Positions 31,049 to 42,598 of a stretch of 64,000 nucleotides of DNA are shown here, piece by piece. Positions within the stretch are counted from its first letter, which is position 1. Every line of letters starts with the position of its first letter. The DNA lies in NCBI RefSeq assembly GCF_014205215.1, contig NZ_JACHNC010000001.1, positions 4,159,001 through 4,223,000 of the forward strand, written 5' to 3'. This stretch comes from Actinoplanes lobatus (lineage in GTDB: Bacteria; Actinomycetota; Actinomycetes; Mycobacteriales; Micromonosporaceae). A program made the position numbers and the translations under genes. Below the pieces are notes generated by a model. The model saw only the letters and a list, made by a program, of their open reading frames with translations, had not been told where the DNA came from and made no database searches.

Positions 31049-33553
31049 TCAAACGGGGTTTTCGAGGCCGAGCAGGCGGTCGAACAGGCGGAGCCGGAAC
31101 ACCACGGTCAACGTCAGGTACCAGAGGACCAGCGTCGGCAGCACCACGAAGAAGACCGCCTTCGACGGCCCCATCAGGCCGAAATACTGCCACAGCAACG
31201 GTACGCAGAGGACCGCGCCGAACGCCACCATCAGGCCCAGCACCAGCCACGACGGCCGTTTGTCGCCGGTCGGCTCGGTCCACGCCGCGAACACCCGGGA
31301 CCGCGGCGCCAGGAACAGGATCAGCAGAAACGACGCGAAGCAGAAGAACGTCGACAGCCCGGTCTGCGCCAGGATGGTGGCGGAGGCCTCGGTGAAGTCG
31401 GCGTCGACGCCGTACGTCAGGCCGGTCGTCCGCTCGAACTCGTGAATGATCCGCTCCGGGGCCCGCCCGGAGCCGAAACCGTGCGTGACAAGCGTGTAGA
31501 ACACGGCGTAGATGGCCGTGCCGAAGGTGGCGGTGACCACCGCGGCCGGCGCCACGAACCGCACCAGGTTGCGCAGCAGATGCGGGTCCGGCTTGGTGGG
31601 TTCCGCCCAGAAGGTGAGGAACACCGTCGGGATGCCCACCGTGAACAGGGTCAGGCCCACCTGCGTCGGCGAGTACGGGAAGCTCAGCCCCAGCATCGTC
31701 ACCGACAGGATGACCAGCCCCTGACTGGCGACCCGGGACAGGAAGACGTAGAGCGAGATCCCGATCCCGTTGATGATCCGCCGGCCCTCGTACTGCGCCG
31801 GGGACAGCGCCGAGAAGTCGTCCTCGACCAGCACGATGTCGGCAACGTCCCGGGTCACCGTGCTGCCGCTGCGCATCGCCACGCCGACCTGCGCCTGTTT
31901 GAGGGCGCGGGCGTCGTTCACCCCGTCGCCGACCATCGCGACGTACCGGCCCTGCCGCCGCAGCGAGCGCACGATCCGCTCCTTGTGCTCCGGCGCGACC
32001 CGGCCGAACACGCTGGTGCCGGCCACCAGCCGGTCCAGCGCCGGGTCGTCGAGGTCGTCCAGGGCGGCGCCCGTGACCGGCTCGTCCCCGGTGATCCCGG
32101 CCCGGGCGGCGATCGCGGCGACGGTACGCGGATCGTCGCCGGACAGCACTTTCAGCTCCACCCCGTCGGACCGGAAACGGGCCACCGCCGCGGCCACCTC
32201 GGGACGCAGCTCGTCGGCGAGCACGGCCAGCGCGACCGGCTCCAGCACCGGCAGGCCGGGCCGCCCCGCCGCGTCGCGCAGCCCACCCTCCGGATCCTCG
32301 GCACGTGCCAGCAGCAGCACCCGCAGCCCCTGCCCGGTACGGTCGGTGATCTCGCCGGCCGGCACCGGGCGCAGCAGCCGCCCGGCCAGCGCGTCCGGCG
32401 CGCCGAGCACCCACGCGCCCTCCTCGGCGACCAGGCCCGACCAGCGCAGCGACGACGAGAACGGCACCTCGTCGCGGACCTCCCAGACCGGCCCGCTCAG
32501 CGCCCCGGAGAGCGCCATGGCCGTCAGGTTCGGGGTGGTGGCGTTGTGGGCCAGCCCGCCCAGCGCCCCGGCGGCCATGGCGTACTCGTGATCGCCCAGC
32601 GGGACGATCTCCGCCAGCGCCAGCTGCCCGGTGGTCAGCGTGCCGGTCTTGTCGGTGCAGATCACGTCCACGCTGGTCATCGACTCGACCGCGTTGACCT
32701 GCTGCGCCAGGGCGCCGGTGCGGGCGATCCGGACCGCGCCGGCGGTGTAGGCGAGCGCGATCAGGAAGAACAGCCCGTACGGCACCAGCCCGGACAGCAC
32801 CGCGGTGATCTGCACGACCCGCAGAACGCTGAACCCCTCCAGCGCCGCCTGCGCCAGGATGGCCCCGCTCATCAGCACGGCCAGCGCCATCACCAGCCGC
32901 ACGATGAACTCGATGCTGCGCTGCAACGGCGTCTTGTCGGTGGTGGCCCGCCGCGCCTCGGCGGTGAGCCGGCCCGCGTAGCTGTGCACGCCCACGTCCC
33001 GGGCCAGCTGGTGACCGTCGCCGGCCACGCACAGGCTGCCCGAGCGCAGGTCGTCGCCCGGATGCTTGACCACCGGGTCGGATTCACCGGTCAGCAGCGA
33101 CTCGTCGGCCTCCAGGCGGCCGCCGTCGAGCAGCGGGCCGTCGACCACGATCTGGTCGCCGGGGCGGACCCGCAGCACGTCGCCGCGAACCACCTGGTCC
33201 GGGGCGACCTCGGTCTCCCGGCCGTCGCGGATCACCAGCACCCCGGCCCGGTCCAGCAGTTGCAGCCGGTCCAGCTTGCGTTTGGCCCGGATCTCCTGGG
33301 CCGCGCTGAGCACCGCGTTGATCAGGCCCAGGCCGACGCTGATCAGCGCGTCGCTGTAGCGGCCCAGCACCAGCAGCGCGGCGCCGATCACGAACAGGAT
33401 CAGATTGAAGAACGAGAAGACATTGGTACGCAGGATCTCGGCGTAACCGCGCGATCCGCCCTGTACGGCGGTGTTCGCCTCGCCCCGCCGGCGCCGTGCC
33501 TCGGCCTCCGCCCCGGTCAGCCCTTCGGCCGGAGCGAGCATCAGCTGTTCCAT
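31049..33553 (-). CDS. P-type cation ATPase (CtpE-like)
   Basis: An 834-residue cation pump. Actuator TGES at 155-158; phosphorylation site DKTGT with Asp301; hinge MVGDGVNDARALKQA in the P domain; ten membrane helices in the 2-2-6 pattern. Overall order and motifs resemble mycobacterial CtpE, a calcium-transporting ATPase (GLTGAEAEARRRRG start, ANVF/TNVF loop, VQEIRAK/AQEIRAK helix). Oddity: the helix-4 ion motif PEGL reads VPYGL, so the ligand Glu is replaced by Tyr; ion specificity may differ. Start ATG at 33553 chosen because it matches the family N-terminus; the ribosome-binding site is weak. Confidence 0.9.
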   Translation of the reverse strand: MEQLMLAPAEGLTGAEAEARRRRGEANTAVQGGSRGYAEILRTNVFSFFNLILFVIGAALLVLGRYSDALISVGLGLINAVLSAAQEIRAKRKLDRLQLLDRAGVLVIRDGRETEVAPDQVVRGDVLRVRPGDQIVVDGPLLDGGRLEADESLLTGESDPVVKHPGDDLRSGSLCVAGDGHQLARDVGVHSYAGRLTAEARRATTDKTPLQRSIEFIVRLVMALAVLMSGAILAQAALEGFSVLRVVQITAVLSGLVPYGLFFLIALAYTAGAVRIARTGALAQQVNAVESMTSVDVICTDKTGTLTTGQLALAEIVPLGDHEYAMAAGALGGLAHNATTPNLTAMALSGALSGPVWEVRDEVPFSSSLRWSGLVAEEGAWVLGAPDALAGRLLRPVPAGEITDRTGQGLRVLLLARAEDPEGGLRDAAGRPGLPVLEPVALAVLADELRPEVAAAVARFRSDGVELKVLSGDDPRTVAAIAARAGITGDEPVTGAALDDLDDPALDRLVAGTSVFGRVAPEHKERIVRSLRRQGRYVAMVGDGVNDARALKQAQVGVAMRSGSTVTRDVADIVLVEDDFSALSPAQYEGRRIINGIGISLYVFLSRVASQGLVILSVTMLGLSFPYSPTQVGLTLFTVGIPTVFLTFWAEPTKPDPHLLRNLVRFVAPAAVVTATFGTAIYAVFYTLVTHGFGSGRAPERIIHEFERTTGLTYGVDADFTEASATILAQTGLSTFFCFASFLLILFLAPRSRVFAAWTEPTGDKRPSWLVLGLMVAFGAVLCVPLLWQYFGLMGPSKAVFFVVLPTLVLWYLTLTVVFRLRLFDRLLGLENPV

Positions 33554-33618
33554 TCGATCGCAGTCCCCGCGCCTGACCGTACATTTCGGCAGGCCGGCGG
33601 CGATCGGTTTCGCCGGGA

Positions 33619-36600
33619 TCAGTCCGGTTCCGGCAGTTCCGCGAGCTGTGCCGCGATCCGCTGCGCCTCGCTGTCGTTGCCGACCTCCCGGAACCGCTGC
33701 TCCGCCTCCACCCAGGCGGTCCGGGCCCGCGCGTGGTCGCCGGCGAGCTGATGGGCGGCGCCGAGCGCGGACAGGCACAGCGCCACACCCCAGGGCTCGT
33801 GCAGGATCCGCAACATCCGCAGCGAGGCGAGCAGGTGGGTGACCGCGTCGGTGGGCCGGTCCTCGGCCAGGCGCAGCTCGCCGAGTGCCCGCAGCGCGAT
33901 CGCGTGCTGCGCCGACAGCCCACCACGCTCGAAGATCGCCAGAGCGCGCCGCAGCGCGGACCCGGCCCGCGGATCGCCGCGCCGGGTGTGCAGCTGCCCG
34001 AGATCCAGCAGCGCCCACGCCTGCCCGGAGTCCTGGCCCAGCCGCCGGTACCGTTCCAGCGCCTCCTCGAACGCCGTCTGGCTCGCGGCGAAGTCACCCG
34101 ACTCGCGGTGCACCACACCCAGACCCCGGTAGGCGAACGCCTCCACATCGGGCAGCCCGTGCCGCTGGGCCAGCTCGAGAGCCGCGGTGAAACAGTCCCG
34201 TGCCTGCTCGATGCGGTTCTGCTCGCGGTGCATCACACCCAGCGAGCGCCACGCCGCCGCCTCGGCCGCCGCATTGCCGGCCCGCGCGGCCCGGACCGCG
34301 GACTCCTCCAGCATCTCCCGTGCGACCACATGATCACCGAGCCGCCGCCGCAGCGTCGCGACGAGCACCATCGTGTCCACCTCGGCGCGCGGATGACCGA
34401 ACGCGGTGAAGACGGCCCGCGCCGACCCGGCCAGGCGCAGTGCCCGGTCCAGGGTGATCTCCTCGTCGGCGAGGGCGCGGCAGGCCAGGCCGTACCGGAT
34501 CACCGCCGTCCCGAGCCGGTCGTCCTCGCGCTCGCAGACCGCCAGCGCCGCCCGGTGTGCCGCCAGGTACTCGTCGTTGTGGTCACGCTGGTCGAAAAGG
34601 TCCCGTGACACCGACGTGAGCCGCCACGCCACGCCGCTCAGCCCGGCCGCGGCCGCCTGCCGGACCGCGGCGACCAGGGCCGCCCGTTCGCCGGCCAGCC
34701 AGGCGAACGGGTCGCCGGTCAGCTCCTCCACCTCGGCCGGCGACAGCGCGACACCGCCCTTGCCCTCGGTCTCCGCCATCGGGCTCAGCAGCCGGTACGG
34801 CAGGCGCGCGGCCGCCGCCCCGGCCAGCGTGAGCCACTCCCGCAGGGCCCGTTCGACGCTGTCCTGCCGCTCCCGCGGCTCGTCCTCCTCGTCGGCGTGC
34901 GCCCGTGCGAACAGCCGGATCAGGTCGTGGAACCGATACCGGAAGGCGCCCACGGTCTCCAGCAGGTGGGTGTCCACCAGTTCGTCGACCAGATCCTCGG
35001 CCCGGTCGTACGGCACGTCCAGCAGCGGGGCGGCGACCCAGGCCGCGAAGTCCGGGGCGTCGAGCAGAGCCAGCCGGCGCAGCGCCCGCCGGCCCTCGGC
35101 GCTGAGGTCGCGGTAGCTGGCCGCGAAACTGGCCCGGACCGCGAGGTCGTCGACGGCCAGCTCGTCGAGCCGCAGCTGTTCGTCCGACAGCCGCTGGGCC
35201 AGCCGGCGCAGCGGCCAGTGCGCCCGGACGGCGAGCCGGGCGCCGGCCACCCGGATCGCCAGCGGCAGGAACCCGCACCGGCCGGCGATCTCCGCGGCGA
35301 TCGCGGGTTCCGCGTCGACCCGGGCGGCGCCGCAGATCCGGCCGAGCATCCGGACCGCGTCGTCCGGGCCGAGGACGGTGAGCGTCACCCGGGCGGCGAC
35401 GGCCAGGCCGCCCAGCCGGCGCCGGCTGGTGACCAGCACCGCGCAGGTCGCCGAGCCGGGCATCAGCGGGCGCAGCTGGGCCAGGTCCCGGGCATCGTCG
35501 AGCACCACCAGCACCCGGCGGCCGGCGAGCAGGCTGCGGTACAGGTCGACCCGCTCGTCCAGACCGGACGGAACGGTCCCGCCGGTCACCCCCAGCGCGT
35601 TCAGGAAGCGCCCGAGCACCTCGGCCGGCTCGGCCGGCGCCGGATGCACGCCGCCCAGCCCCGCATGGAGCACGCCGTCGGGGAAGAGGCTGTCCAGCAG
35701 GTGCGCGACGTACAGGCCGAGGGTGCTCTTGCCGACCCCGCCGGGCCCGGTGATCAGCGCGACCGGGAGCGCGCCGCCGGGCGCCGGAGCGGACAGCGCC
35801 GACCGGAGCCGCTCCACCTCGGCGCCACGCCCGGTGAAGTCGGCGACCACCGGCGGCAGCAGCGCGGGCCGGGCCATCGGCAGCGGCGACTCACCGGCCG
35901 CGGCCGGGTCGGGACGCAGCTCCGGAGCGTGCCGCAGGATCGCCGTGTTGAGACGCCGCAACTCGGTGCCGGGGTCGGCGCCGAGGGCGGCGGCCAGCCG
36001 GTCACTGAACGTCTGGAAGAACTGGAGCGCGTCGGCGTGCCGGCCCGACCGGTACAGGGCCAGCATCAGCTGCGCGGCCAGCCGCTCCCGGGTCGGATGC
36101 TCGGCGGTCAGGATGATCAGTTCGCCGGTGATCTCCGCGTGCCGGCCACGATCCAGTTCGGCGTCGACCATCAGCTCGGTCGCGGTGAGCCGCAGCTCGT
36201 GCAACTGGCCGCCGACCCGGTCGCGTAGCCGGTCGGAGGCGTCCCCGGCCAGGATCGGGCCGCGCCACAGGGCGAGCGCCTCCCGCAGCACGCCGGCCCG
36301 GCCGACCGGATCACGCTCGGCCCGGCCCCGCTCCACCAGGGCCCGGAACCGGAACGCGTCGACCAGCTCCGGATCCACCTCGGCCAGGTAGCCGTTCGAC
36401 GTCCGGACCAGGCGCAGCGCGGGGACGGCCGGCGTACCGAGGGCGGTCCGCAGCCGGGCGACGTGACTGTGCAGGGCGGCCCGCGCCGACGGCGGCGGAT
36501 CGTCGTCCCACAGCAGGGAGAGCAGCCGGTCGACGGGAACCGCGGTGCCGGCCTCCAGCAGCAGGACACCCAGCAGGCAGCGCTCGCGGCGGCGGCCCGG

Positions 36601-36669
36601 AACCACCGGTTCGGGATGCTCCGCCACCAGCGGGCCGAGCACCGCGAACCGTGCGGTCAGCGCCGGCAA
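33619..36669 (-). CDS. AfsR/SARP-family regulator (BTAD, NB-ARC, TPR)
   Basis: A large transcriptional activator of about 1016 residues. Order: winged-helix DNA-binding domain (RFAVLGPL to RLRTALG); BTAD domain (DAFRFRALVERG, HPTRERLAAQLMLALYRSGRHADALQFF); NB-ARC ATPase with P-loop ITGPGGVGKSTL, VLVVLDDARD, and FLPLAIRVAG; then about ten TPR-type repeats (for example AWRSLGVMHREQNRIEQA). AfsR-like proteins switch on secondary-metabolite operons. It is divergent from the cysteine-rich peptide operon across a perfect palindrome, making it the likely pathway regulator. The start is uncertain: three TTG codons occur in a 12-bp tandem repeat (36669, 36681, 36693), and a GTG at 36789 would place the palindrome inside the gene. 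36669 gives the usual family N-terminus. Confidence 0.9.
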   Translation of the reverse strand: MPALTARFAVLGPLVAEHPEPVVPGRRRERCLLGVLLLEAGTAVPVDRLLSLLWDDDPPPSARAALHSHVARLRTALGTPAVPALRLVRTSNGYLAEVDPELVDAFRFRALVERGRAERDPVGRAGVLREALALWRGPILAGDASDRLRDRVGGQLHELRLTATELMVDAELDRGRHAEITGELIILTAEHPTRERLAAQLMLALYRSGRHADALQFFQTFSDRLAAALGADPGTELRRLNTAILRHAPELRPDPAAAGESPLPMARPALLPPVVADFTGRGAEVERLRSALSAPAPGGALPVALITGPGGVGKSTLGLYVAHLLDSLFPDGVLHAGLGGVHPAPAEPAEVLGRFLNALGVTGGTVPSGLDERVDLYRSLLAGRRVLVVLDDARDLAQLRPLMPGSATCAVLVTSRRRLGGLAVAARVTLTVLGPDDAVRMLGRICGAARVDAEPAIAAEIAGRCGFLPLAIRVAGARLAVRAHWPLRRLAQRLSDEQLRLDELAVDDLAVRASFAASYRDLSAEGRRALRRLALLDAPDFAAWVAAPLLDVPYDRAEDLVDELVDTHLLETVGAFRYRFHDLIRLFARAHADEEDEPRERQDSVERALREWLTLAGAAAARLPYRLLSPMAETEGKGGVALSPAEVEELTGDPFAWLAGERAALVAAVRQAAAAGLSGVAWRLTSVSRDLFDQRDHNDEYLAAHRAALAVCEREDDRLGTAVIRYGLACRALADEEITLDRALRLAGSARAVFTAFGHPRAEVDTMVLVATLRRRLGDHVVAREMLEESAVRAARAGNAAAEAAAWRSLGVMHREQNRIEQARDCFTAALELAQRHGLPDVEAFAYRGLGVVHRESGDFAASQTAFEEALERYRRLGQDSGQAWALLDLGQLHTRRGDPRAGSALRRALAIFERGGLSAQHAIALRALGELRLAEDRPTDAVTHLLASLRMLRILHEPWGVALCLSALGAAHQLAGDHARARTAWVEAEQRFREVGNDSEAQRIAAQLAELPEPD

Positions 36670-36695
36670 GGCGTTTGGCAAGGCGTTTGGCAAGA
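36667..36695. repeat. Tandem 12-bp repeat at the SARP gene start
   Basis: GGCAAGGCGTTT occurs twice in tandem and a third partial copy begins (GGCAAG). Each copy supplies an in-frame TTG on the minus strand, so the repeat number changes the N-terminus by four residues (LPNA) without shifting frame. Confidence 0.7.
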
Positions 36696-36716
36696 CATGG
36701 TCCGCATCGTACAAAC

Positions 36717-36740
36717 CACGGACATCGACCGATGTCCGTG
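36717..36740. promoter_or_regulatory. Palindromic operator candidate between SARP gene and peptide operon
   Basis: CACGGACATCG and CGATGTCCGTG, 11-bp perfect arms separated by AC. It lies 52 bp before the peptide start and 48 bp or more before the SARP start, in the only divergent promoter of the cluster. Suitable as a dimeric regulator site controlling both directions. Confidence 0.55.
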
Positions 36741-36791
36741 TGTTTTCGGGGGCGCTCTGTCGCCCGCGACCAGGAACGAGAGGAGACACCC

Positions 36792-37010
36792 GTGCGCGCG
36801 ATGCGAACCGTTGCCGACCGGATGCTCACCATGTTCGTGCCGAAGGCGACCGCGCAGGCGGCCTGTTCCGGTAGCTACCAGTTCTGCCACACCGCCAGGG
36901 ACGCGAACTGCAGCTACCAGTACGGCCAGGACATGCGGGCCATCTGGAAGTGCACCTACAAGCCCAACTGCACGGACACCTGCTCCAAGACGAGCCTCTG
37001 CTGCGGCTGA
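36792..37010 (+). CDS. Cysteine-rich peptide precursor (putative disulfide-bonded secreted peptide)
   Basis: A 72-residue peptide without recognised family. GTG start with AGGAG seven bases upstream. The first 23 residues (MRTVADRMLTMFVPKATAQA within them) are basic and amphipathic and end in AQA, an A-x-A site as cut by S26 signal peptidases; there is no long hydrophobic core, so this looks like a leader for a dedicated exporter, not a Sec signal. The remaining 49 residues hold eight cysteines (residues 25 to 71, ending in SLCCG), eight being compatible with four disulfides, plus many Tyr, Asn, Thr and Lys. Neighbours are a MauE-like protein, a CPPC thioredoxin-like protein, an ABC exporter and an S26 peptidase. 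The mature product is inferred; activity (bacteriocin, signal, metal binding) is unknown. Confidence 0.75.
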   Translation: MRAMRTVADRMLTMFVPKATAQAACSGSYQFCHTARDANCSYQYGQDMRAIWKCTYKPNCTDTCSKTSLCCG

Positions 37011-37082
37011 TCCGAGAAGACGCGTGCCACCGCCGCACGGGGGCGGTGGCACGCGCTCCAGCGACATCTACCGGGGGTGCCG

Positions 37083-37613
37083 ATGAGCCTTCAACTCTTC
37101 TGCCAGATCGTTCTCGGCCTGACCTTCGCGGCGGCGGTGGCCGGCAAGGTGCGCTCCCGGGCCGCGTGGCGAGCCTTCGCAGGTTCGGTCGGTGACCTGG
37201 GGCTCGTCCCGGCCGCCGCGGTCCGGCCGCTGGCGGTGCTGACCGTGGCCGCCGAATCGGGCGTGGTGGCCGCCATGGCCGTGCCCGGCCTGGCCCGGCC
37301 CGGGTTCCTGCTGGCGCTGGCCCTGCTGGCCGCGCTGACCGGTGGCATCGTCGCGGTGCTGCGGGCCGGCCGGCGGGCGGACTGCCACTGCTTCGGCGGG
37401 ACCCCCGAGGCGTACGGCCCGCTGCACGTGGTCCGGAACCTGCTGCTGCTGACCGTCGCCGGGCTCGGCGCGGTCAGCGCGACCCCGGAGACCCTCCGGC
37501 TCGCCGAGGTGCTCCCGACCGTGCTGGCCGCCGTGCCGGCCGCGATGGTCGCCGTCCGCTTCACCGAGATCTTCGCCGTCTTCGACACCCCTCAACCCAC
37601 ATCCCGGAGTTGA
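37083..37613 (+). CDS. MauE/DoxX-like redox membrane protein
   Basis: A 176-residue inner-membrane protein with four helices, of the MauE/DoxX type. MauE is required for the six disulfides of methylamine dehydrogenase small subunit. After the third helix it carries ADCHCFGGTPE, a CxCFG motif typical of MauE-like proteins and the probable redox centre. No methylamine dehydrogenase gene is here; the cysteine-rich peptide 72 bp upstream is the obvious substrate. ATG chosen because GGGGG lies five bases upstream; an in-frame GTG six bases earlier is possible. Confidence 0.85.
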   Translation: MSLQLFCQIVLGLTFAAAVAGKVRSRAAWRAFAGSVGDLGLVPAAAVRPLAVLTVAAESGVVAAMAVPGLARPGFLLALALLAALTGGIVAVLRAGRRADCHCFGGTPEAYGPLHVVRNLLLLTVAGLGAVSATPETLRLAEVLPTVLAAVPAAMVAVRFTEIFAVFDTPQPTSRS

Positions 37614-37617
37614 AACC

Positions 37618-38151
37618 ATGGCAGCACAGCTGAGCGTCACCGTCGTCGTCGGCGTGGTCGCCGTTTTGAACCTCATCCTGACGGTCGGCGTGATCCGCCG
37701 GCTGAAGGATCACGAGCAGCGTTTCACCGAGTTGTCCGCCGACGACGGGGCCTCGAACGCGCAGCCGTCGGTGGGCACCGCGGTTCCCGAGTTCACCGCG
37801 GCCACCACGACCGGTGGCAAGGTCACCGCCGCCGACCTGCGCGACGGCGGTCTCATCGGCTTCTTCTCGGTGGGCTGCCCGCCCTGCGCCGAGCAGCTTC
37901 CGGATTTCACGCGCTTCCTGCGCGCCATGGACGACACGCCCGCACTGATCGTCATCGAGGCGCCCTCGCCCGCGGACGCCGCCGCGTTCCTGGAGGTCAC
38001 CGGAGATCTGCCGGTGGTCCTGGACGGTGGTGACGGGCTGTGCAAGACGTTCGAGGTGAACCGGTTCCCGTCCATGGCGCAGCTGAGCGGGGGAGCGGTG
38101 GCCGCCAACGCGCACACCGTCGCCCGGCTGCTGACCCAGGTTTCCGGGTGA
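37618..38151 (+). CDS. Membrane-anchored thioredoxin-like (TlpA/MauD-type) protein
   Basis: A 177-residue protein with an N-terminal membrane helix (about 6-26, VTVVVGVVAVLNLILTVGV) and an outward-facing thioredoxin-like domain. Active site FFSVGCPPCAEQLPDF: a CPPC dithiol, near residues 87-95. The cis-Pro segment is FEVNRFPSMA. TlpA/MauD proteins oxidise, reduce or isomerise disulfides outside the membrane. It starts four bases after the MauE-like stop with GGAG upstream, and its own stop overlaps the exporter start (GTGA). Likely electron partner of the MauE-like protein in folding the peptide. Confidence 0.88.
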   Translation: MAAQLSVTVVVGVVAVLNLILTVGVIRRLKDHEQRFTELSADDGASNAQPSVGTAVPEFTAATTTGGKVTAADLRDGGLIGFFSVGCPPCAEQLPDFTRFLRAMDDTPALIVIEAPSPADAAAFLEVTGDLPVVLDGGDGLCKTFEVNRFPSMAQLSGGAVAANAHTVARLLTQVSG

Positions 38152-39989
38152 CCGCCCCGGCGCCGCGCGAGAGCCTGTGGCGTGATCTGACGCTCGCGAC
38201 CCGGCTCGCCTGGGCCGCGTCACGGGCCGGGCTTCTCGCCTACCTGGTAGTGCTCGTGCCGCAGGGACTCGCGCCGGTGGCCGTCGCCTGGCTGACGAAG
38301 ACGCTGCTGGACGGCATGGCCGCCGGCCGGGGGCTCGCCGTGCCGCTGCTGGCCGCCCTGGCGGTGGCGCTGCTGGCCACGACGGTCGCCGGCGACGTCG
38401 GCCACTACTTCGCCAGCCGTCTGCGCCGGGAGGTCGACCTGCTGGCACAGCGCAACCTGTTCCTGGCCGCCGGGCGCCTGCCGGGGCTGGCCCCGTTCGA
38501 GGACCCGGCCCTGCACGACCGGCTGGACCTCGGCGAGCAGGCCGCCCAGACCGCGCCGTCGCAGGTGGTCACCGGCGCCGCCGAACTCGGGCAGGCCGCG
38601 ATCACGCTGACCGGCTTCACCGTCGCGCTGATCGCGGTGGACCCGCTGATCACTGCCACCGTCGCGCTGGTCGGGCTGGCCACCCTCCTCGTCGAGGCGC
38701 GGCTGGGCCGGGCCCGGGCCGGGCTGGCCTGGCAGCTCAGCCCGGCCTGGCGGCGGGCGTTCAGCTTCCAGGTGCTCCAGACCGACGTGCGTGCCGCCAA
38801 GGAGATCCGCGTCTACGGTCTCACCGGATATCTGCACGACCGGATGGCCGCGCTGCTGCGGTCGGCCACCGACGCCGAGAACCGGCTCGACAGCCGGGTG
38901 CTGCGCGGCCAGGCCCTGCTCGCCGTCTGCGCCACCGGCTCGATCGCCTTCGGCCTGGTGATGGTGGCCCGGCAGGCGTCGGCCGGCGCGGTCGGCGTGG
39001 GTGGGGTGTCGTTCGCCCTGGCCGCGCTGCTCGGCGTGCAGACGATGATCGCGGTCATGGTCCGGGTCGCGGCGGGCGCGTACGCCGGACTGCTGCTCCT
39101 GCGCCACTACCGGGACGTGGCCACCGACGCCGGGATCGCCGACCCGGTGCGGATTCCGCAGCCGGATGCCGTGGAGAGACCGGCCCCCCGCCTCTCTGAC
39201 GGCATCCGGCTGCGGGACGTGTGGTTCCGCTACGACGAGCAGCACCCGTGGGCCCTGCGCGGGGTGGACCTCACCATCCCGCGGGGGCGGACCGTCGCGA
39301 TCGTCGGCCTCAACGGCGCCGGCAAGAGCACCCTGATCAAACTGCTCTGCCGGTTCTACGAGCCGACCCGCGGCACGATCCGCTGGGACGACACCGACCT
39401 GGCCGGCCTGCCCCCGGAGGCCCTGCGCCGCCGGATGACCGTGGTCTTCCAGGACTTCATGGAGTACGACCTGACCGCGGCCGAGAACATCGGCGTCGGC
39501 GACCTGTCCCGGATGGACGACCTGCCGGCGCTGCGGGCCGCGGCCGCCCGGGCCGGGGTCGACGACCGGCTGACGGCGCTGCCCCGCGGCTACCGGACCC
39601 TGCTCACCCGGATCCACGCGGACTCGGCCGACCCGGACAGCACCGGCGTGACCATGTCCGGCGGCGGCTGGCAGCGGATCGCGATCGCCCGGGCGCTGCT
39701 GCGCGACGACTCCGACCTGCTGATCCTCGACGAGCCCAGCAGTGGGCTCGACCCGGAGGCGGAGGCGGAGTTGCAGCGGCAGCTGCGCGCCCGGCGCGAC
39801 GGTCGGACCATCGTGATCATCTCGCACCGGCTGAGCGCGGTCCGCGAGGCCGACACCATCGTGGTCCTGGCCGACGGGCGGATCACCGAGTCCGGCGCCC
39901 ACGACGAGCTGATCGCCGCCGGCGGCCGGTACGCCGAGCTGTTCGCCCAGCAGGCCAGCGGGTACGCGCCGGTACCGCAGGGGGCGTGA
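38148..39989 (+). CDS. ABC exporter (fused permease and ATPase)
   Basis: A 613-residue ABC half-transporter, acting as a homodimer. A six-helix membrane domain spans about 20-330; the ATPase follows with Walker A IVGLNGAGKSTLIKLL, Q-loop VVFQDFMEYD, signature TMSGGGWQRIAIARAL, Walker B LLILDEPSSGLDPEAE and H-loop IISHRLSAV. The signature reads SGGGW instead of the usual SGGQ. There is no N-terminal C39 peptidase domain, so leader removal must fall to another protein, presumably the S26 peptidase encoded next. GTG start overlapping the thioredoxin-like stop; the end overlaps the peptidase start (TGATG). Confidence 0.92.
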   Translation: MTAPAPRESLWRDLTLATRLAWAASRAGLLAYLVVLVPQGLAPVAVAWLTKTLLDGMAAGRGLAVPLLAALAVALLATTVAGDVGHYFASRLRREVDLLAQRNLFLAAGRLPGLAPFEDPALHDRLDLGEQAAQTAPSQVVTGAAELGQAAITLTGFTVALIAVDPLITATVALVGLATLLVEARLGRARAGLAWQLSPAWRRAFSFQVLQTDVRAAKEIRVYGLTGYLHDRMAALLRSATDAENRLDSRVLRGQALLAVCATGSIAFGLVMVARQASAGAVGVGGVSFALAALLGVQTMIAVMVRVAAGAYAGLLLLRHYRDVATDAGIADPVRIPQPDAVERPAPRLSDGIRLRDVWFRYDEQHPWALRGVDLTIPRGRTVAIVGLNGAGKSTLIKLLCRFYEPTRGTIRWDDTDLAGLPPEALRRRMTVVFQDFMEYDLTAAENIGVGDLSRMDDLPALRAAAARAGVDDRLTALPRGYRTLLTRIHADSADPDSTGVTMSGGGWQRIAIARALLRDDSDLLILDEPSSGLDPEAEAELQRQLRARRDGRTIVIISHRLSAVREADTIVVLADGRITESGAHDELIAAGGRYAELFAQQASGYAPVPQGA

Positions 39990-40384
39990 TGGTGTTCGCC
40001 CTGGCCCTGACCGCCGCCGTGCTGCTGGCCGCCGTCCTGGCGGCGCGCCGGTTCCTGGTGGTGACCGTGGAGGGCATCAGCATGACGCCGACGCTGCGAC
40101 CCGGCGACCGGCTGCTGGCCCGCCGGATCAGCGGCGCCGCCGTCGAACGTGGCGCCATCGTGGTGATGCGGCCGGACGGCCACCCCGGCTACTACCTGAA
40201 ACGGGTGGCCGCGGTGGCCGGCGACCCGGTGCCCGAGGGCATTCCGGCGGACGCGGCCACGGTGCCGCCGCGAACCGTGGTGCTGCGCGGCGACAACGCC
40301 CACCACAGCCTCGACTCACGGGTCTGGGGCTGCGTGCCGGTCGAGCGGATCGTCGCCGTCACGGTGCGCCCGATCGATCGCTGA
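39989..40384 (+). CDS. S26-family signal peptidase (leader peptidase)
   Basis: A 131-residue type I signal peptidase-like enzyme. One N-terminal membrane helix (FALALTAAVLLAAVLAARRF, written as residues 3-22 approximately), then the catalytic Ser motif GISMTPTLRPGDRL and the Lys motif YYLKRVAAVAGD, followed by LRGDNAHHSLDSR. This is a minimal, single-domain member, shorter than the housekeeping enzyme. It starts at the overlap with the exporter stop and is the last gene of the operon. It is the natural candidate to cut the AQA site of the cysteine-rich peptide precursor outside the membrane. Confidence 0.92.
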   Translation: MVFALALTAAVLLAAVLAARRFLVVTVEGISMTPTLRPGDRLLARRISGAAVERGAIVVMRPDGHPGYYLKRVAAVAGDPVPEGIPADAATVPPRTVVLRGDNAHHSLDSRVWGCVPVERIVAVTVRPIDR

Positions 40385-40394
40385 CACCACTGGT

Positions 40395-40417
40395 GGCGGG
40401 CCGTTACGCGGCCCGCC
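40395..40417 (+). terminator. Terminator of the peptide operon
   Basis: GGCGGGCCG and CGGCCCGCC form a 9-bp stem with a 5-nt loop (TTACG), eleven bases after the peptidase stop. It closes the five-gene unit before the glycosyltransferase genes. Confidence 0.65.
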
Positions 40418-40497
40418 GCCCGGCATTAACTGTCCGGTCTCCCAGCGCTCATAGCGTCGGCTCGAATACGCCCGGCCCCCTGCGTAAGCGAGTCGAC

Positions 40498-41478
40498 ATG
40501 CCTGCTGAACCGGACGTCAGCGTCGTCATCCCGACCTGTGACCGGCCGCTGCTCGCCACCCGGGCGGTCCACGGCGCCCTCGGCCAGACCCACGGCGACC
40601 TCGAGGTCATCGCGGTGGTCGACGGCCCCGACCAGGCCACCGTCGACGCCCTCGCCGAGATCGGCGACCCCCGGCTGCGGGTGGTCGTCGTCCCGGAGCG
40701 CCGCCGCGCCCCGAACGCCCGCAACGTCGGCGCCGCCGAGGCCCGCGGCCGCTGGACCGCGCTGCTCGACGACGACGACGAATGGCTGCCCGACAAGATC
40801 GAGGTGCAGCTCGCGCTGGCCGCCGGTTCGGCCGCCCGCTACCCGGTGGTCGCCAGCCGGCTGATCAACCGCACCCCGCGCGCCGACTCGGTCATGCCCC
40901 GCCGCCTGCCCGCCGCCGGGGAGCCGCTCAGCGAGTACTTCTGCGTCCGGCGCGGCCTGTTCTACGGCGACGGCTTCATCCAGACGTCGACGATCATGGC
41001 GCCCACCGAGCTGCTGCGCCGGGTGCCGTTCACCGTCGGGCTGCGCCGCCAGCAGGAACTCGACTGGGCGCTGCGGGCGGTCCGCGAGGACGGTGTGGAA
41101 CTGCTCTACGCCGAACAGCCGCTCGTGCTCTGGCACCAGGACGAGGACCGCGACCGGATCAGCCTGCACAACCCGTACGAGCAGCAGCTCGCCTGGCTGC
41201 GCGCCAACCGGCACCTGTTCACGCCCCGGGCGTACGCCGCCTTCACGCTCAGCGTGATCAGCTCGATGGCCGCGCCGTCGCGCGAAGGCCGGCACTTCCG
41301 TGAACTGCTCGCCGAAGCCCGCGAACACGGCGACCCGCGCGCCCTCGACTACCTCACCCACCTCCAGATCTGGGCCCTGCCGCCGGCCCTGCGCCACCGG
41401 CTGCGCGACCTGATCGTCGGCCGCCGTGACCCGGCCCCCGCCCCGGCCACCACCGCCGAGCCGGTCGATGTCGGCTGA
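40498..41478 (+). CDS. GT-A glycosyltransferase (family 2)
   Basis: A 326-residue cytosolic glycosyltransferase. DVSVVIPTCDRP opens the fold, LDDDDEWLPDK carries the DxD motif and RQQELDWALR is the acceptor-side acidic motif. C-terminal helices with LWHQDEDRDR. The ATG at 40498 immediately precedes the GT-A fold; an in-frame ORF extension upstream crosses the terminator. Its stop is inside the next gene (11-bp overlap), so the two transferases are made together, likely for one surface glycan. Confidence 0.9.
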   Translation: MPAEPDVSVVIPTCDRPLLATRAVHGALGQTHGDLEVIAVVDGPDQATVDALAEIGDPRLRVVVVPERRRAPNARNVGAAEARGRWTALLDDDDEWLPDKIEVQLALAAGSAARYPVVASRLINRTPRADSVMPRRLPAAGEPLSEYFCVRRGLFYGDGFIQTSTIMAPTELLRRVPFTVGLRRQQELDWALRAVREDGVELLYAEQPLVLWHQDEDRDRISLHNPYEQQLAWLRANRHLFTPRAYAAFTLSVISSMAAPSREGRHFRELLAEAREHGDPRALDYLTHLQIWALPPALRHRLRDLIVGRRDPAPAPATTAEPVDVG

Positions 41479-42598
41479 CGGCCGCCGGGTCGCGATCTGG
41501 CGCAGCGCCATGCTCCCCGGCTCGGAGACGTTCATCCGGGCCCAGGGCGACGCGCTCACCCGCTGGCAGCCCACCTACATCGGCGCCGTCCGCGCCGGGT
41601 CCGCGCTGTCCCGCCCGGACGACGTGATCACCTTCCCGGACGGCGGCGGCGACTTCCTGCGGCTGCGGCTCACCGGCGCCTCACCCCGGCTGCGCGCCGT
41701 CCTCGCCGAGGCCCGCCCCGACCTGGTGCACGCCCACTTCGGCGGCGACGGCTGGCTGGTCAGCCACAGCGCCCGCCAGCTCGGCACACCGCTGGTCGTC
41801 ACGGTGCACGGCCACGACGTCACCAGGCAGCCGCAGGCCCCCGGACTGCACGGGCTGCGCTACCGGCGCAACCTGCGAACCGTCTTCGACCGCGCCGCCC
41901 TCGTCATCGCCGTCTCCGACGTGATCCGCACCCGCGCCGAACAGTGCGGCGCCGACCCGGCCCGGATCCGCGTCCACCACACCGGCGTACCGGTTCCGCC
42001 CACCCCGCCGATCGTCCCGAAACGCTGGGACGTCGTCCTCGTCGGCCGGTTCGTCGCCAAGAAAGGCGTGGACGACCTGCTCACCGCCCTGTCCACGCTC
42101 ACCGCGCCACGCCCGCGCGCCCTGCTCATCGGCGACGGCCCGCTGCTGCCCGAGATGCGCGCCCTCGCCGAACGCCTCGGCGTCGACGCCACCTTCGTCG
42201 GCACCCGGCCACCCGCATCGGTCCAGCAGCACCTCGCCGAGTCCCGGATGCTGGCCGCGCCCTCCAAGACCGCGCCCGACGGCGACACCGAAGGCCTGCC
42301 CACCACCATCCTGGAAGCCGGCGCGCTCGGCCTGCCGGTGGTGGCGACCCGGCACAGCGGCATCCCCGAGGCCGTCATCGACGGCGAGACCGGCCTGCTG
42401 GTCCCGGAAGCCGACCCCCGATCGCTCGCCGCCGCCCTGGCCCGCCTGCTCGGCGACGCCGGCCTGCGCCGCGGCCTCGGCGCCCGGGCCCGCTCCCACG
42501 TGGCCACGAACTTCGACCTCAATGTCCAGACGGCCCGCCTGGAAGACCTCTACGACCAGGCCGTCCACACGTCACCCTCGCTGCCGGGTCGTCCTTAG
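41468..42598 (+). CDS. GT-B glycosyltransferase (family 4)
   Basis: A 376-residue GT4 enzyme. The N-terminal domain has WRSAMLPGSETFIRAQ and LVHAHFGGDGW; the C-terminal nucleotide-sugar domain has VVLVGRFVAKKGVDDLLTAL, LIGDGPLLPEM and GLPTTILEAGALGLPVVAT, the E-x7-E region. Resembles exopolysaccharide/colanic-type transferases (WcaL-like). It overlaps the GT2 gene before it, and is followed by the long palindrome at 42723. Confidence 0.92.
   Translation: MSADGRRVAIWRSAMLPGSETFIRAQGDALTRWQPTYIGAVRAGSALSRPDDVITFPDGGGDFLRLRLTGASPRLRAVLAEARPDLVHAHFGGDGWLVSHSARQLGTPLVVTVHGHDVTRQPQAPGLHGLRYRRNLRTVFDRAALVIAVSDVIRTRAEQCGADPARIRVHHTGVPVPPTPPIVPKRWDVVLVGRFVAKKGVDDLLTALSTLTAPRPRALLIGDGPLLPEMRALAERLGVDATFVGTRPPASVQQHLAESRMLAAPSKTAPDGDTEGLPTTILEAGALGLPVVATRHSGIPEAVIDGETGLLVPEADPRSLAAALARLLGDAGLRRGLGARARSHVATNFDLNVQTARLEDLYDQAVHTSPSLPGRP

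Follow-up and report, generated by a model that had tools for sequence, protein, structure and literature searches.

Is the short cysteine-rich reading frame at the head of a compact gene cluster in Actinoplanes lobatus a genuine gene, and what would the proteins encoded behind it do for its product? The cluster lies in a 64,000-nucleotide stretch of contig NZ_JACHNC010000001.1 (positions 4,159,001 to 4,223,000; hereafter the window, meaning the whole stretch that was analysed). A first-pass annotation, made from the sequence letters, had described there a 72-residue peptide with all eight cysteines in its C-terminal 49 residues and, behind it, a MauE-like membrane protein, a CPPC thioredoxin-like protein, an ABC exporter and an S26 signal peptidase. 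All these elements were confirmed, as was the overlap of several of the genes (Table 1). Our comparisons make it likely that the cluster encodes a pathway in which disulfide-rich peptides, probably antagonistic ones, would be exported under the direction of their leader, oxidised and cut by a signal peptidase.

The precursor and its conserved leader

With the GTG start read as M and the slash marking the predicted cut, the precursor is MRAMRTVADRMLTMFVPKATAQA/ACSGSYQFCHTARDANCSYQYGQDMRAIWKCTYKPNCTDTCSKTSLCCG. A protein database of 5.8 billion entries held five relatives besides the peptide's own entry (83, 61, 63, 56 and 47% identity), all of which share its leader and have CTDTCS in the core. 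Because of these relatives, and of a large family elsewhere that shares the leader, the open reading frame (ORF) is, on comparative grounds, more than a product of chance. Of 67 genomes of the genus, just one besides the own genome has a close homologue, and the locus is therefore an accessory trait. Ten of the peptides, compared with Pfam and NCBIfam, gave only matches below the cut-offs (E 0.027 or worse), and nothing was found among solved structures for the window peptide (best E 2.9).

The family was collected with a leader profile derived from an alignment of 25 leaders chosen by eye; single-sequence searches (E up to 0.1) were noisy by inspection, and the counts given here take leader-profile matches only. 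Across approximately 180 aligned leaders the conserved columns were D9 (91%), R10 (88%), L12 (82%), P17 (88%), A21 (98%) and A23 (93%). The cleavage site AQA/A, proposed earlier for the window peptide, fits this pattern, as A21 and A23 are the two alanines of A-x-A and reach these values in about 175-180 leaders. A-x-A was present in 178 of the 182 leader matches at E<=1e-4, compared with 44% after shuffling, and three of the four matches without it were fragments within a core. The leaders have no GG/GA cleavage site, the leader-core boundary being A-x-A. They have no lipobox (L/V/I at -3 to the first cysteine) either: zero, one or two residues separate A-x-A from the first cysteine in 158 of 208 members, and the -3 residue in those 158 is column 21 (98% A), column 22 (mainly S/A/Q/R/D) or column 23 (93% A). 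The maximal hydropathy over nine residues had a median of 1.27 in 208 leaders versus 3.06 in the thioredoxin membrane segments, these anchors, and no set of true Sec signals, being the reference scored. By this measure the leader is weakly hydrophobic and appears unlike a typical Sec signal.

Linkage of leader and cassette across genomes

The leader profile recovered four members in the own genome, the next match there having an E of 0.18. Among 200 genomes of the same family, in which proteins with the shared leader carry different cysteine-rich cores, a leader match (E<=0.01) occurred in 76 genomes and in 27 of 44 genera, own included. Class-wide, 17 of 394 genomes matched at E<=1e-4, a number that includes the own genome and one false positive devoid of cysteines (L168); one leader match at L366 was likewise rejected. 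At least one cassette-type gene lay within roughly 3 kb at 26 of the 27 class-wide loci fetched, some of which overlap.

The reciprocal search used the thioredoxin alignment alone (14 rows) against named genomes (206 stretches, 153 relatives), and loci were counted for the best 80 of the 153 relatives. The hosts were Nonomuraea, Microbispora, Streptosporangium, Micromonospora, Virgisporangium, Dactylosporangium, Actinomadura, Amycolatopsis, Kribbella, Arthrobacter, Thermobifida, Streptomyces and others. The first-pass annotation had expected a small cysteine-rich ORF with A-x-A beside the same genes in relatives, and such an ORF was indeed found: a leader match accompanied 79 of the 80 loci at E<0.5 and 78 at E<0.05, the sole locus without a leader ORF being L239 of Actinorhabdospora filicis. 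With A-x-A, at least four cysteines and at most 115 residues required, 78 of the 80 loci passed; at L190 the leader ORF is present without A-x-A. Neither stops nor an absence of selection, which had been named as signs of a spurious gene, were seen, the frames being open and under selection.

In a comparable tally of 78 loci we found ABC genes within 7 kb at 72, S26 at 74, MauE at 53 and a SARP regulator at 44; at 58 the nearest precursor was located upstream and in the same orientation. The 200 family genomes divided into 73 with precursor and thioredoxin, 3 with the precursor only, 11 with the thioredoxin only and 113 with neither (Fisher p=1.7e-38, kinship uncorrected); the three precursor-only genomes score weakly (E 0.0016 to 0.009).

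Cysteine numbers, core diversity and selection

The expectation of even cysteine numbers in relatives was borne out. An even number (4 to 12) was counted in 195 of 206 distinct cores (p=1e-44), a set that left out precursors without A-x-A, with fewer than four cysteines or longer than 110 residues. With the A-x-A and cysteine filters lifted, the 182 matches at E<=1e-4 comprised 169 even, 11 odd (at least two cysteines) and 2 cysteine-less proteins, one longer match being excluded. All 21 precursors fetched later from two genomes had even numbers, and the best precursors of the 78 thioredoxin loci were 73 even and 5 odd. Disulfide pairing is the simplest reason for such even numbers. Cysteine makes up ~18% of residues, and 149 distinct cysteine spacings were counted among 208 proteins, so that by sequence the cores are hypervariable under a conserved leader. 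Adjacent precursors with different cores, two to seven per locus, were observed at L042, L043, L107 and L251. By eye, a C-terminal core motif, xCTxxC(T/S)xW...C, recurs at L054, L056, L101, L137, L271 and L272; the window core has it in part, and it hints at one common scaffold inside the superfamily.

Between the window and its nearest relative (L267, inferred to be A. flavus) the leader differs by no nonsynonymous and one synonymous change, while the core differs by 18 nonsynonymous and one synonymous (20 and 1 in a second alignment), with all eight cysteines kept. The ratio of nonsynonymous to synonymous rates (dN/dS) was 0.75 for MauE, 0.49 for the thioredoxin, 0.46 for the ABC protein and 0.84 for S26. 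In this pair the core thus changed fast compared with the cassette (p=0.001) and the leader (p=0.0018), and its change exceeds the synonymous change of the cassette (p=0.017, one-sided). Recombination that brought in a foreign core is a possible source. Across the family, the ratio of nonsynonymous to synonymous proportions (pN/pS) was above 1 in 21 of 82 pairs for the core, 4 of 82 for the leader and 0 of 59 for the thioredoxin, distant pairs being near saturation and some pairs coming from one locus. Positive selection as a family-wide rule was rejected with just these 21 core pairs above 1, and most close pairs had a core pN/pS below 0.5, a sign of purifying selection. The pair comparisons therefore speak for real genes in which fast change is episodic.

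Precursor and exporter numbers per genome

Per-genome counts of precursors and ABC genes are lower bounds, as the candidates scored in each genome were capped in number. The own genome has four precursors (L098-L100 and the window) alongside four ABC genes, and Virgisporangium aurantiacum, for whose genome 10% contamination is given, has at least 20-21 leader matches and at least 20 ABC genes at E<=1e-80. In A. filicis we found at least 38 leader matches at E<=0.001 and one ABC gene at E<=1e-80 among the 150 scored of 201 candidates; its cassette is split, with ABC and S26 together and the thioredoxin with a SARP-like gene elsewhere (L366, L367). Three further genomes gave at least 18 leader matches to one ABC gene (G083), 12 to 1 (G004) and 26 to 2 (G026). 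In the first fetched set an ABC gene lay within 6 kb of 55 of 88 precursors, and 26 of the 88 had none of the five genes nearby, 19 of these 26 being from A. filicis. No common neighbour of the scattered A. filicis precursors was obvious in the flanking ORFs of 17 loci, compared by eye only and not by a family search. So many precursors against one ABC gene imply processing in trans and are consistent with a machine that reads the leader. The description of the system as self-contained therefore holds for the window locus but not generally, as in several genomes many precursors at scattered sites seem to be served by one cassette.

The cassette proteins

The window cassette proteins are MauE, the thioredoxin, the ABC protein and S26 only, and Pfam and NCBIfam searches found no synthetase, YcaO or radical-SAM protein among them. 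MauE scored 80.8 bits on PF07291 (cut-off 27). The thioredoxin-like protein is of the AhpC-TSA/Redoxin type, with CPPC and an N-terminal membrane segment; both CxxC cysteines and one proline, which we take to be the cis-proline, are kept in all 14 aligned sequences, and its profile retrieves thioredoxin-family structures including ResA and StoA. It is not MauD proper, because it reached 16.5 bits on the MauD model TIGR02661, whose cut-off is 188.6. Conserved RRLREH-type charges directly follow its membrane anchor. In the ABC protein ABC_tran was found; a peptidase C39 domain was absent from the 16 Pfam hits obtained at E<=1. The S26 protein has GISMTP and YYLKRV, presumably the catalytic serine and lysine boxes; a strict pattern for both boxes matches 87 of the family's 117 S26 hits, and the window protein, judged by eye, is among those with both.

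Proposed pathway and alternatives

In the pathway that we favour, the ABC exporter probably recognises the 23-residue leader. Because this exporter lacks a C39 domain, the S26 peptidase is the likely cutter after A-x-A (AQA/A in the window) and would take the place of the missing C39 protease. The MauE/thioredoxin pair would form or shuffle the core disulfides, four if all eight cysteines pair. Leader and machinery are conserved and apparently common to several precursors, with the cores diversifying as in conotoxins, and the products would most likely be antagonistic (antimicrobial or anti-eukaryotic) and under secondary-metabolism control. The first-pass annotation had the four proteins oxidise, export and trim the peptide; the comparisons support that reading, in which oxidation, export, cleavage and activity, together with leader recognition, are steps that we infer.

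Several observations weigh against this pathway. The near homologue of the window peptide is confined to that one other genus genome, the AlphaFold2 model of the precursor was poor (pLDDT 49, pTM 0.25, from 6 sequences), and no immunity gene was recognised. MauE was undetected within 7 kb in 25 of the 78 loci by a one-sequence search, the 11 thioredoxin-positive genomes have no leader match, and 30 of the 117 S26 hits fell short of the two-box pattern. Odd cysteine numbers occur in 11 of the 206 cores, the median core charge is only +2, and fast core change is not general, most close pairs being under purifying selection. Moreover, in 47 of 51 thioredoxins the residues just behind the membrane segment carry a higher net charge than the N-terminal tail, and by eye RRAD precedes CHCFG in MauE. 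By the positive-inside rule, these charges would therefore place both redox sites in the cytoplasm. This prediction is at odds with a simple scheme of export first and oxidation later, so that either the rule is misleading in this case or the peptides are oxidised before they are exported.

The same pathway could deliver signals of a pheromone-like kind rather than antagonistic toxins. Extracellular cysteine-rich peptides can act as signals, and the SARP genes at 44 of 78 loci would suit such a role, but no sensor or receptor was found among the window cassette proteins tested, and dozens of different cores in one genome look more like an arsenal than like a code of signals; we consider signalling unlikely. 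The A-x-A end of the leader is the usual signal-peptidase I site and would be expected of an ordinary Sec-secreted small protein lying next to unrelated genes. Given the low hydropathy of the leader and the peptide at 79 of the 80 best thioredoxin-defined loci, that explanation is highly improbable. Metal binding of the metallothionein kind is hardly credible: the cysteine content would agree with it, but the bias to even numbers in 195 of 206 cores, the frequent linkage to a CxxC thiol-disulfide oxidoreductase and a leader with a terminal A-x-A would not. Finally, the leader/core layout is also that of a classical ribosomally synthesised and post-translationally modified peptide (RiPP), in which the cysteines would be nucleophiles for thioether or other enzymatic cross-links, and MauE clusters were filed as candidate RiPPs by decRiPPter (PMC7794033). 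The lack of a synthetase, YcaO or radical-SAM protein among the window cassette proteins tested and the even cysteine numbers, which suit disulfides, make cross-linking very unlikely.

A bolder form of this pathway can be offered tentatively, as possible rather than probable: a bacterial counterpart of a conotoxin superfamily, in which one conserved leader heads hundreds of disulfide scaffolds and a single MauE-thioredoxin/ABC/S26 machine would fold, export and trim in trans up to ~40 toxins in one genome, perhaps with oxidation at the cytoplasmic face before export. One machine for dozens of scaffolds would, if true, offer a useful way to obtain disulfide-rich peptides from bacteria, and raises the question of how the MauE/thioredoxin pair and the ABC exporter cope with so many folds. 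The pathway is testable and widely distributed, and its peptides have no Pfam or NCBIfam model among the ten tested; the leader motif with the four-gene cassette can serve as a finder for new disulfide-rich peptides in many actinobacteria.

Comparison with known systems

As in methylamine dehydrogenase maturation, the cassette pairs a MauE protein above the PF07291 cut-off with a thioredoxin that has an N-terminal anchor, but in the window it neighbours a small peptide gene and not an enzyme subunit. Bacteriocins with double-glycine leaders and C39 ABC proteins, and glycocins of the sublancin type, combine ABC export with leader cleavage, and the sublancin operon includes thiol-disulfide oxidoreductases. 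The window system differs in having no C39 domain and no GG site, with S26 and MauE instead. It differs from lanthipeptides and other enzyme-crosslinked RiPPs in that no modification enzyme was found among the operon proteins tested.

The closest precedent is the genome-mining study decRiPPter (2020). It put forward candidate RiPP families from Streptomyces, three of which contain mauE and one of these also mauD, uncharacterised there; their precursors have at least eight cysteines, the filter demanded a transporter, a peptidase and a regulator, and S. viridosporus T7A is named (PMC7794033). The window resembles these families in its MauE, its MauD-like thioredoxin and its eight-cysteine precursor. 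S. viridosporus NRRL 2414 (L221) carries the leader family and the cassette, a tie to decRiPPter at species level only. By contrast, the sections of that report drawn on here are confined to Streptomyces and describe no common leader, A-x-A or role for S26, nor many-precursor genomes or a wider distribution (PMC7794033). In the open-licence part of PubMed Central (PMC), this paper alone pairs MauE and RiPP as whole words, and no follow-up was found there. The suggestion that the family is undescribed thus needs qualifying: its MauE clusters had been flagged by decRiPPter (PMC7794033), and what is new, as far as could be seen, is the class-level description of leader, S26, many-precursor genomes and spread.

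Actifensins are also actinobacterial and disulfide-rich, with a leader, a variable core and sometimes several copies (PMC6989792). They differ from the window system in leader, cysteine framework and genes: they have six defensin-type cysteines, G-X-E before the core, a subtilisin-like protease, a LuxR regulator and several ABC genes, and the main text of that report contains neither 'thioredoxin' nor 'signal peptid' (0 occurrences of each; PMC6989792). The window core, with eight cysteines in other spacing, is not of the actifensin/defensin framework C-X5-12-C-X3-C-X9-10-C-X4-5-C-X-C.

Organisation and control of the locus

The positions of all features are collected in Table 1. The precursor stop codon is at 37008-37010, and the peptide and MauE genes do not overlap; the thioredoxin and ABC genes have GTGA in common (38148-38151) and the ABC and S26 genes TGATG (39987-39991). 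A terminator closing the operon had been proposed; the hairpin is present but has no T-run. The first-pass annotation was silent on the 14-bp hairpin, perfectly paired, in the gap between the peptide and MauE genes, which is possibly an attenuator or a 3'-end stabiliser. Among 208 members, 61% of the 75-nt stretches from the precursor stop fold below -35 kcal/mol versus 29% of controls, taken 400 nt further on, and a hairpin after the precursor is therefore a trend across the family. It perhaps serves to yield more precursor than machinery.

Table 1. Positions of the cassette and its flanking elements in the window (dG, folding energy)
Feature	Position	Strand	Evidence
Divergent SARP/BTAD-NB-ARC-TPR regulator ORF, start uncertain	33619..36789	-	Pfam, NCBIfam
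11-bp perfect inverted repeat, 2-bp spacer, regulator-precursor gap	36717..36740	.	sequence; fold z -1.96
Shine-Dalgarno-like GAGGAG	36780..36785	+	sequence
Precursor peptide gene, 72 aa, GTG start	36792..37010	+	translation, close relatives, leader family
Leader, 23 aa, ending A-Q-A; D9-R10, P17 and A-x-A kept across the family	36792..36860	+	leader alignments
Predicted mature core, 49 aa, 8 Cys	36861..37007	+	translation, relatives
14-bp perfect hairpin, precursor-MauE gap (37021-37034/37042-37055)	37021..37055	+	fold, dG -39.4, z -3.6
MauE/DoxX-like membrane protein, 176 aa, CHCFG	37083..37613	+	PF07291 E 1.4e-22
Membrane-anchored MauD/ResA-like thioredoxin, 177 aa, CPPC	37618..38151	+	Pfam, 14-row alignment, structure profile matches
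ABC exporter, 613 aa, ATPase domain found, permease part inferred, no C39	38148..39989	+	Pfam, NCBIfam
S26 signal-peptidase-like protein, 131 aa	39989..40384	+	PF10502 E 1.4e-21; TIGR02227
Terminator-like hairpin without T-run	40392..40420	+	fold, dG -33.5, z -3.2

Control by the divergent SARP gene had been suggested, but this link is weaker, a SARP gene lying within 7 kb at 44 of the 78 loci. The regulator is AfsR-like, yet far under the NCBIfam cut-off (572.8 versus 1430 bits). The 11-bp inverted repeat in the regulator-precursor gap is a possible operator. The SARP ORF has at its 5' end 12-bp direct repeats (GGCAAGGCGTTT, 36665-36688) that encode LPNA repeats; their region holds several in-frame TTG start candidates for that ORF, and the repeats may be coding or operator sequence. 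Beyond the SARP gene, and adjoining it, is a P-type ATPase-like ORF (31049-34018, minus strand) with DKTGTLT, which we take as the mark of that class. On the 3' side of the cassette a glycosyltransferase family 2 ORF is followed by a second ORF that by eye looks like a glycosyltransferase (40393-42598, plus strand), and both are probably unrelated to the cassette.

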